This document shows positions 3,293 to 33,734 of a DNA stretch of 33,971 bases, piece after piece (the first letter of the stretch is position 1; every line of letters starts with the position of its first letter). Position numbers and translations under genes: made by a program. This DNA comes from a virus: positions 1 through 33,971 of IMG/VR virus record IMGVR_UViG_3300004369_000066, one strand, 5' to 3'. A model generated the notes under the pieces. That model was not told the DNA's origin, ran no database searches, and worked only from the letters and a program-made list of their open reading frames with translations.

Positions 3293-3321
3293 TTGACTAT
3301 ATAGTTCATAGGGTTTATAAT
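3293..3321 (+). promoter_or_regulatory. sigma70-type promoter
   Basis: TTGACT (3293-3298) and TATAAT (3316-3321) are separated by exactly 17 bases, close to the bacterial housekeeping-sigma consensus. Transcription should begin near 3328, at the very first base of the riboswitch-like leader. Host-type promoters mark early genes in T4-like phages, so this unit is probably read by the unmodified host polymerase. Confidence 0.85.
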
Positions 3322-3328
3322 ACCCATA

Positions 3329-3409
3329 CGTTCATCCACTTCAGTGGACGCAAGTAAGTCGCGGAACGGATCGTTCATCTCTTCGGAGACGCAAACGACT
3401 GAAGGAACG
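3329..3409 (+). promoter_or_regulatory. tandem glutamine-riboswitch-like aptamers (glnA / Downstream-peptide type)
   Basis: Two adjacent elements share one plan. Element 1 (3329-3368): CGTTC, AT, a hairpin CCAC-TTCA-GTGG, then GACGCAAGTAAGTCGCG and closing GAACG. Element 2 (3372-3409): CGTTC, A, hairpin TCTC-TTCG-GAGA, then CGCAAACGACTGAAG and closing GAACG. CGTTC pairs with GAACG as the P1 stem in each. The CGUUCAUC...GGACG(C/G)AAGUA...GGAACG core is the signature of the glutamine-binding aptamers known in cyanobacteria and cyanophages, the second class of which precedes short peptide genes. Element 2 departs from the GTAAG part of the core and may bind less well. Identification is by remembered consensus, not by a covariance model. 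Confidence 0.8.
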
Positions 3410-3421
3410 GGAAAACGGATC

Positions 3422-3433
3422 CTGCGAAAGCAG
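3422..3433 (+). promoter_or_regulatory. GNRA-loop hairpin in the 5' leader
   Basis: CTGC-GAAA-GCAG forms a 4-bp stem with a stable GNRA tetraloop between the second aptamer and the ribosome site (AGGAG, 3458-3462) of the 54-aa gene. It may be part of an expression platform. UCCU at 3420-3423 could pair with AGGA of the ribosome site, which would compete with this hairpin, but this is only a pairing read by eye. Confidence 0.45.
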
Positions 3434-3470
3434 AGAAGGTTAACTTTCCATTCTTTTAGGAGTCATTACA

Positions 3471-3635
3471 ATGAACACACTTACACTGATCAAAAAGCAA
3501 ATCGAAAAGCAGGCTGCTCTGCACGACGCACAAATCCACATCACCAAATATCGTGGTGTAGATTGTAAAGTGCATGAGGTTGGTGAGGAAACTCACGGCA
3601 CTTTCTGCTATCGTGGTCGCACTTACACCAAGTGA
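3471..3635 (+). CDS. 54-aa YRG-motif protein (DUF4278-like)
   Basis: A 54-residue protein with AGGAG eight bases before ATG 3471. The N-terminal half is Lys/Gln-rich and helical (LIKKQIEKQAAL). The C-terminal half carries two YRG motifs, KYRGVDCKV and CYRGRTYTK, the hallmark I associate with the small cyanobacterial DUF4278 family. Two cysteines (C32 and C46) are present. It is the only gene between the promoter at 3293 and the terminator at 3663 and sits behind the glutamine-riboswitch-like leader, as short peptide genes do after Downstream-peptide aptamers. Its role is unknown; control by glutamine, the host nitrogen signal, is inferred. Confidence 0.78.
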   Translation: MNTLTLIKKQIEKQAALHDAQIHITKYRGVDCKVHEVGEETHGTFCYRGRTYTK

Positions 3636-3662
3636 TTGCAAAATCAATTGAATAGTGTTAGG

Positions 3663-3688
3663 ATGGGAGGGTAACCTCCCATTTTTTT
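3663..3688 (+). terminator. intrinsic terminator of the 54-aa gene
   Basis: A perfect 8-bp stem ATGGGAGG/CCTCCCAT closed by a GTAA tetraloop is followed by a run of T residues (3682-3688). It ends the unit that begins at the 3293 promoter. The next gene starts at the ATG right after the T run. Confidence 0.88.
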
Positions 3689-3859
3689 ATGGATAGAGAT
3701 AAACTAAAATTAATCGTGAGGAACCTAAAATCTTTAGTAGATGTGCTAGAGTCTGAGGTATACTCAAATGTGGATGCATACAAAACAGAGAACTTTGATG
3801 ATCCTGTAGAAAATTACATCATAGATTACGACGAGGTATTTGAAGACGACGATGACTGA
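3689..3859 (+). CDS. small acidic protein, hypothetical
   Basis: A 56-residue open frame from ATG 3689 to TGA 3857-3859. It begins MDRDKLKLIVRNLKSLVDVLESEVYS, a probable amphipathic helix, and ends in a very acidic tail (DYDEVFEDDDD). It overlaps the thyX start by eight bases in another frame, which supports real coupled coding. No strong ribosome site is seen, because the upstream sequence is the terminator T run. Function unknown. Confidence 0.6.
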   Translation: MDRDKLKLIVRNLKSLVDVLESEVYSNVDAYKTENFDDPVENYIIDYDEVFEDDDD

Positions 3860-33257: not shown

Positions 33258-33263
33258 TTCCTT

Positions 33264-33348
33264 GGGAGTGTGATGAAACTGGTAAACATTGCGGCCTTAA
33301 AAGCCGTTGACCGTAAAGGTCTTGCGGGTTCGATCCCCGCCGCTCCTA
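33264..33348 (+). tRNA. tRNA-Leu (anticodon UAA)
   Basis: An 85-base class II tRNA. The acceptor GGGAGTG/CGCTCCT pairs with two G-U pairs, D arm ATG/CAT, anticodon arm GCGGC-CTTAAAA-GCCGT with anticodon TAA, a long variable arm GACC-GTAAA-GGTC, and T arm GCGGG-TTCGATC-CCCGC. CCA is not encoded. UUA is favoured by AT-rich phage genes. Confidence 0.93.
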
Positions 33349-33353
33349 TTGCT

Positions 33354-33662: not shown

Positions 33663-33734
33663 GCCTCTGTAGCTCAGTGGTAGAGCAGGGCTTTTGTAAA
33701 GCTCAGGTCGCAAGTTCAAATCTTGTCGGAGGCT
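33663..33734 (+). tRNA. tRNA-Thr (anticodon UGU)
   Basis: A 72-base class I tRNA. Acceptor GCCTCTG/CGGAGGC, D arm GCTC...GAGC with AGTGGTA, anticodon arm GGGCT-TTTGTAA-AGCTC with anticodon TGT, variable AGGTC, T arm GCAAG-TTCAAAT-CTTGT. CCA is not encoded. The gene fits tightly between two coding genes. Confidence 0.93.

Follow-up and report, generated by a model that had tools for sequence, protein, structure and literature searches.

A probable interlocked leader RNA of the glutamine riboswitch class upstream of a DUF4278-like gene in T4-like cyanophages, with P2 loops that may serve as gene-carrying sites

Between a promoter and a gene for a 54-residue protein, the cyanophage DNA analysed here carries two adjacent aptamer-like elements, at 3329–3368 and 3372–3409, which raise the question of whether they are two glutamine aptamers in tandem or parts of a single structure, and what such a leader would control. 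The window, by which we mean the whole stretch of 33,971 bases, is an IMG/VR virus record whose talC, thyX and tail genes are those of a T4-like cyanophage, and thyX lies downstream of the leader and the 54-aa gene; it also includes tRNA-Leu(taa) and tRNA-Thr(tgt) genes at 33263–33349 and 33663–33734, respectively. In hundreds of cyanophage sequences the elements are again found upstream of this small gene, which we refer to as the YRG gene, and 211 of the 212 testable second elements lie 31–67 nt upstream of the YRG ORF. The sigma-70-like promoter, TTGACT-17-TATAAT at 3293–3321 (all features of the leader, gene and terminator are on the plus strand), matches the consensus at 11 of 12 positions; taken alone this match is weak, because a looser scan of the window finds 2 sites against 2.2 expected, but of 90 relatives whose first loop is filled, 49 have a promoter of this type 7–9 nt 5′ of the element. 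The near-consensus promoter described in the earlier note is supported by these observations, while the start of the transcript on the first element, at about 3328–3329, is the position expected from it.

The first element opens with CGTTC (s1, 3329–3333), followed by a P2 hairpin with the loop TTCA (3335–3348), a linking strand GACGCAAGTA (3347–3356) that includes AGUA, one half of a possible loop E, the segment AGTCG (3357–3361), and GAACG (e1, 3364–3368). The second opens with another CGTTC (s2, 3372–3376), has a P2 hairpin with a UUCG loop (3378–3389), and closes with a 3′ core, GACGCAAACGACTGAAGGAACG (3388–3409), that ends in GAACG (e2, 3405–3409); a GACGCAA segment is present in both (3347–3353 and 3388–3394). 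The Rfam glutamine riboswitch model RF01739 matches the second element at 3370–3413 with 34.5 bits (E 1e-5) and the first at 3329–3368 with 20.4 bits (E 0.08), and the glutamine-II model RF01704 scores 25.9 bits at 3369–3418. The gathering thresholds are 35 and 33 bits, respectively, and the covariance-model scan of the window with Rfam gives no match at gathering, with RF01739 missing by half a bit. Relatives do reach it: L080 and L061 score 35.1 bits, and in phage ACG-2014f, with both loops empty, a single RF01739 match of 41.1 bits covers both elements. The two elements with their inner hairpins and GACGCAA segments are thus where the earlier note had placed them, and its assignment to the glutamine-aptamer class agrees with the presence of all core motifs and with Rfam matches to both elements, although the sub-gathering scores fall short of formal membership; the result named there as refuting the idea, a lack of covariance-model hits, did not occur.

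The earlier note had each element closed by its own CGTTC/GAACG helix, and this we could not confirm. The AGUA and GAAGG halves of loop E, expected in one aptamer, come together within neither element of the window, and are brought together only if the elements interlock, with s1 pairing with e2 and e1 with s2. Among loci found by protein-only searches, AGUA is present in all 165 A1-like elements (those followed by another element) and RAAG in none, while 150 of 152 A2-like elements have RAAG without AGUA; by comparison, AGUA and RAAG occur together in each of four host aptamers and also in the two aptamers of a host tandem (L304). The inner strands e1 and s2 change jointly, reading GAACG/CGTTC in 326 of 336 leaders and CAACG/CGTTG in the other 10 (with the linkers GAG, GAA, GAAC, GTTC and GTA), and never differ on one strand alone. 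The double change leaves e1/s2 and s1/e2 intact, whereas two separate P1 helices would each lose one pair; it therefore favours the interlocked fold, with the proviso that the ten changes may share ancestry. Because of the AGUA/RAAG split and these joint changes, we infer that the two elements are probably one interlocked structure and not two independent tandem aptamers. This comparison of structures was made after seeing the data, several pairings and P2 positions were examined before those given, and the p-values reported below are uncorrected for that choice.

Tandem glnA RNAs are known (PMC2864571), and the L304 case is an example; moreover, all four strands in the window are identical, so that both closures are possible, and the computed energies are close. 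We nonetheless regard two independent glutamine aptamers as improbable here, since one of the two conserved halves of the type I junction is missing from each element and the paired e1/s2 changes would cost a base pair in each separate P1. Constrained folds of the window give −22.7 for the tandem and −21.2 for the composite form, and the free minimum fold (−24.0) uses the outer s1/e2 pairing; these energies decide for neither form. Their near-equality, together with inner strands that are unchanged in 326 of the 336 leaders, might be expected if the tandem and interlocked pairings were alternative states of one switch, set by the state of the ligand; this reading is possible, if on balance unlikely, as both tandem helices lose a pair in the ten variant leaders and the tandem form is thus not strictly kept. 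Within the interlocked fold, AGTCG (3357–3361) is complementary to 3396–3400 and could form a shared P3, but the AGUCG/CGACU strands are nearly invariant, and so lack covariation support, and are poorly matched in P-SSM4 and P-HM2.

The leader could also keep the aptamer shape while binding a ligand other than glutamine, or nothing. A C replaces the G of the type I linking strand and the Rfam scores are sub-threshold, as this would predict; however, the base following GAACG is a G rather than a C, so that by our by-eye mapping the long-range pair beside the ligand would be kept. That pair is G-C in the hosts and C-G in the window, and C-G is also found in glutamine-II (PMC6698751), which makes a change or loss of ligand quite unlikely in our view.

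The small gene reported to follow the elements is confirmed as a 54-aa ORF at 3471–3635, which matches the phrog_545 profile over its full length (residues 1–54, E 9.5e-29) and has matches in 375 phage records. The Pfam DUF4278 model PF14105, which corresponds to the N-terminal part of the glutamine synthetase inactivating factor IF17, gives 19.9 bits (E 0.001) against a gathering threshold of 25.3 bits, and it matches 21 of 23 relatives at E values up to 0.01 (best 2.7e-5). Alignment by hhalign with host DUF4278 proteins encoded behind glutamine aptamers gives 93.3% (E 2.6e-7) over 30 columns. By these profile comparisons the window protein is a sub-threshold DUF4278 relative, and it is through this relationship that the suggested tie to nitrogen control is upheld. 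It has in common with DUF4278 proteins the repeated YRG motifs and the location behind a glutamine aptamer, and differs in an extra N-terminal segment and in falling below the Pfam cut-off. Structure prediction was uninformative (mean pLDDT 58, with alignments made from the window and the loci of this analysis only). PirA, considered as a possible relative, was set aside, as the paper describing it reports its absence from marine picocyanobacteria and makes no mention of the DUF. The strong terminator claimed downstream is borne out at 3660–3690 (−16.9 kcal/mol, z −4.8); it is detected by folding and was not picked up by a terminator pattern scan of the window.

How the leader might act on this gene is suggested by a second complementarity. 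The core strand CTGAAGGAA (3399–3407) could pair with TTCTTTTAGGAG (3451–3462), which overlaps the Shine-Dalgarno sequence AGGAG (3458–3462), the core CU(G/A)AAG being complementary to CUU(C/U)AG; a fold of 3395–3480 with this helix has −23.1 kcal/mol (z −3.7). Among 166 classified unique leaders (11 more were unclassified), the variable base pair is G-C in 81, G-U in 50 and A-U in 35, and A-C in none. Since a G in the core can pair with C as well as U, only the A cores are informative, and all of these face a U. A gene tree, read on its supported branches, yields about six independent pairs in agreement and no contrary one (median p 0.03). This covariation suggests a translational ON switch, and a plausible mechanism can be outlined in which the leader, an RNA of the glutamine-riboswitch class, would govern how the DUF4278-like small phage protein is translated. 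The outer helix s1/e2 and the inner hairpin e1/s2, with the possible shared AGUCG/CGACU helix, would form two sites, one complete and type-I-like and the other permuted. In the absence of ligand, the core CUGAAGGAA would pair with UUCUUUUAG and hide the Shine-Dalgarno sequence; with glutamine, the core would be held in the aptamer and the gene translated. Cyanobacterial glutamine riboswitches activate expression and lie mainly upstream of DUF4278 genes (PMC6316151). We consider it fairly likely that the interlocked leader is such an ON switch, a reading in which the fold, ligand, direction and role of the protein are all predicted.

Both P2 loops are empty in the window, and genes that relatives carry within them were for that reason missed in the earlier note. 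Among 432 elements with both halves, a long loop is present in 193 of 218 second elements (about 88%) and 64 of 206 first elements; the first loop holds a phrog_6471 gene in about one third of relatives, and the second a phrog_504 gene in most. Of 192 second-loop ORFs, 184 begin at offset 10 and 180 stop 7 nt before the element end, with the core GACGCAAACGACTGA as their last codons, so that the C-terminal DAND-stop is encoded by the 3′ core; 188 of the 192 loops share a single length class modulo 3. The loci behind these counts were selected in part by the aptamer pattern, and relatedness is only partly controlled. A GGAG Shine-Dalgarno sequence is present in the linker before 180 of 192 filled second elements and 1 of 25 empty ones (Fisher 6e-22, uncorrected for relatedness), and is missing from all 90 first-loop ORFs. 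At loci found by the nested proteins alone, the ORF lies between both halves for 64 of 67 phrog_6471 and 47 of 48 phrog_504 proteins, although the latter count is partly circular because the family is recognised by the DAND end that the core encodes. Judging from codon comparisons, the nested genes are under purifying selection, with median dN/dS in the larger length classes of 0.18–0.29 for second loops and 0.12–0.15 for first loops (0.38 in one length class with a single pair).

The stem is maintained across the inserted genes. In the second loop, P2 pairs 3 and 4 are preserved as C-G gives way to U-A, and on the tree about six independent pairs agree for pair 4 with none opposed (median p 0.03); in the first loop pair 3 stays paired, while pair 4 is paired in only 53%. 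The start codon of a nested gene is within the P2 stem or next to it, and the second-loop gene runs through the core, so that folding and nested translation should exclude each other. We therefore propose, tentatively and with less confidence than the switch itself, that the P2 loops of this putative interlocked riboswitch in T4-like cyanophages are gene-carrying sites at which rising glutamine would shut off the nested protein while switching on the DUF4278-like one, with the window representing the empty form.

The nested genes are annotated as hypothetical in several isolates, namely syn9 (gp196 and gp197), P-SSM4 (T4-GC 429 and 430), P-HM2 (PHM2_179 and 180) and S-SM2 (SSM2_270), and the loops are empty in Bellamy and ACG-2014f, as in the window; both are empty in 16 of 194 distinct leaders. 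On a tree of the 194 leaders the second loop has 18 gain or loss changes against a shuffled mean of 22.9, and the first 37 against 46.5, which, for a tree of little resolution based on a 160-nt gene, suggests only rapid turnover or recombination. The phrog_504 protein is predicted to form a helical hairpin (pLDDT 79.5) that has no PDB match under E 1, and its viral matches at E up to 0.001 are all to proteins of cyanophages. The case for common descent of the two nested families as paralogues is weak (hhalign 62%, E 8e-5). In 390 cyanobacterial genomes neither a phage core (with up to two mismatches) nor a phrog_504 protein was found, in a search for which no positive control gave signal. Host P2 loops are mostly 5–66 nt, and in two cyanobacterial cases with loops of about 140 nt (L312 and L387) no start codon was seen by eye at the usual place and no nested gene is apparent. 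The first loop accommodates more than one gene family, as L107 and L162 have a different 75-aa ORF (MPLLMLLMAF...) in that location; the first element of L008 has a longer loop with apparently a hairpin instead of an ORF. In the podovirus P-GSP1, a relative of the first-loop protein is encoded next to psbA but left unannotated (L288:901–1047), with no aptamer halves seen in the stretch 860–1070.

The phage leader shares with the type I glutamine riboswitch (glnA motif, RF01739) the CGUUC/GAACG helix, P2 hairpin, AGUA and GAAGG, and a DUF4278-type gene downstream, but its motifs are split over two interlocked elements, it has CGC...GAACGG where type I has CGG...GAACGC, and its relatives have genes inside the P2 loops. 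With type II (the Downstream-peptide motif, RF01704) it shares the CGCA linking strand with GAACGG and the small downstream gene; however, the score is 25.9 bits against the threshold of 33, and the downstream partner strand of the pseudoknot is not seen for the second element. Group I introns carry homing endonuclease genes in peripheral loops, and are similar in having a protein gene in a loop of a structured RNA; one aptamer-borne gene here is endonuclease VII-like, but the phage elements are without splicing or ribozyme and the nested genes mostly encode small proteins with no function assigned. An insert as long as a gene disrupts the match to the covariance model, which would explain why Rfam misses many of these RNAs. 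Cyanophage glutamine riboswitches (glnA RNAs) have already been catalogued (PMC9964418, PMC9602691), and one at a tmRNA has been described in a phage; in the open-access papers searched we found neither an interlocked layout nor a gene inside an aptamer loop, and an earlier mention may exist. If our reading is true, viruses of abundant marine photosynthesizers have a compact means of placing up to three small genes under one metabolite sensor, and the locus allows the way in which a phage senses host nitrogen status to be tested directly.

The endonuclease VII-like gene belongs to an element of about 0.7 kb that lies directly after e2 in 14 contigs (L414–L427), in which it is 90–100% identical. 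This element has an aptamer of its own with the ORF (phrog_1035, E 1.9e-17) in the loop, and a late-promoter-like ATAAATA site; the flanking genes vary among its carriers while the insertion site is the same, and the element looks like a case of homing. In P-SSM4, a manA RNA (RF01745, 184 bits, L289:571–756) overlaps the annotated CDS PSSM4_169.1 (T4-GC 428, 626–799), which means either that this second RNA is overlapped by a gene or that the gene call is doubtful.
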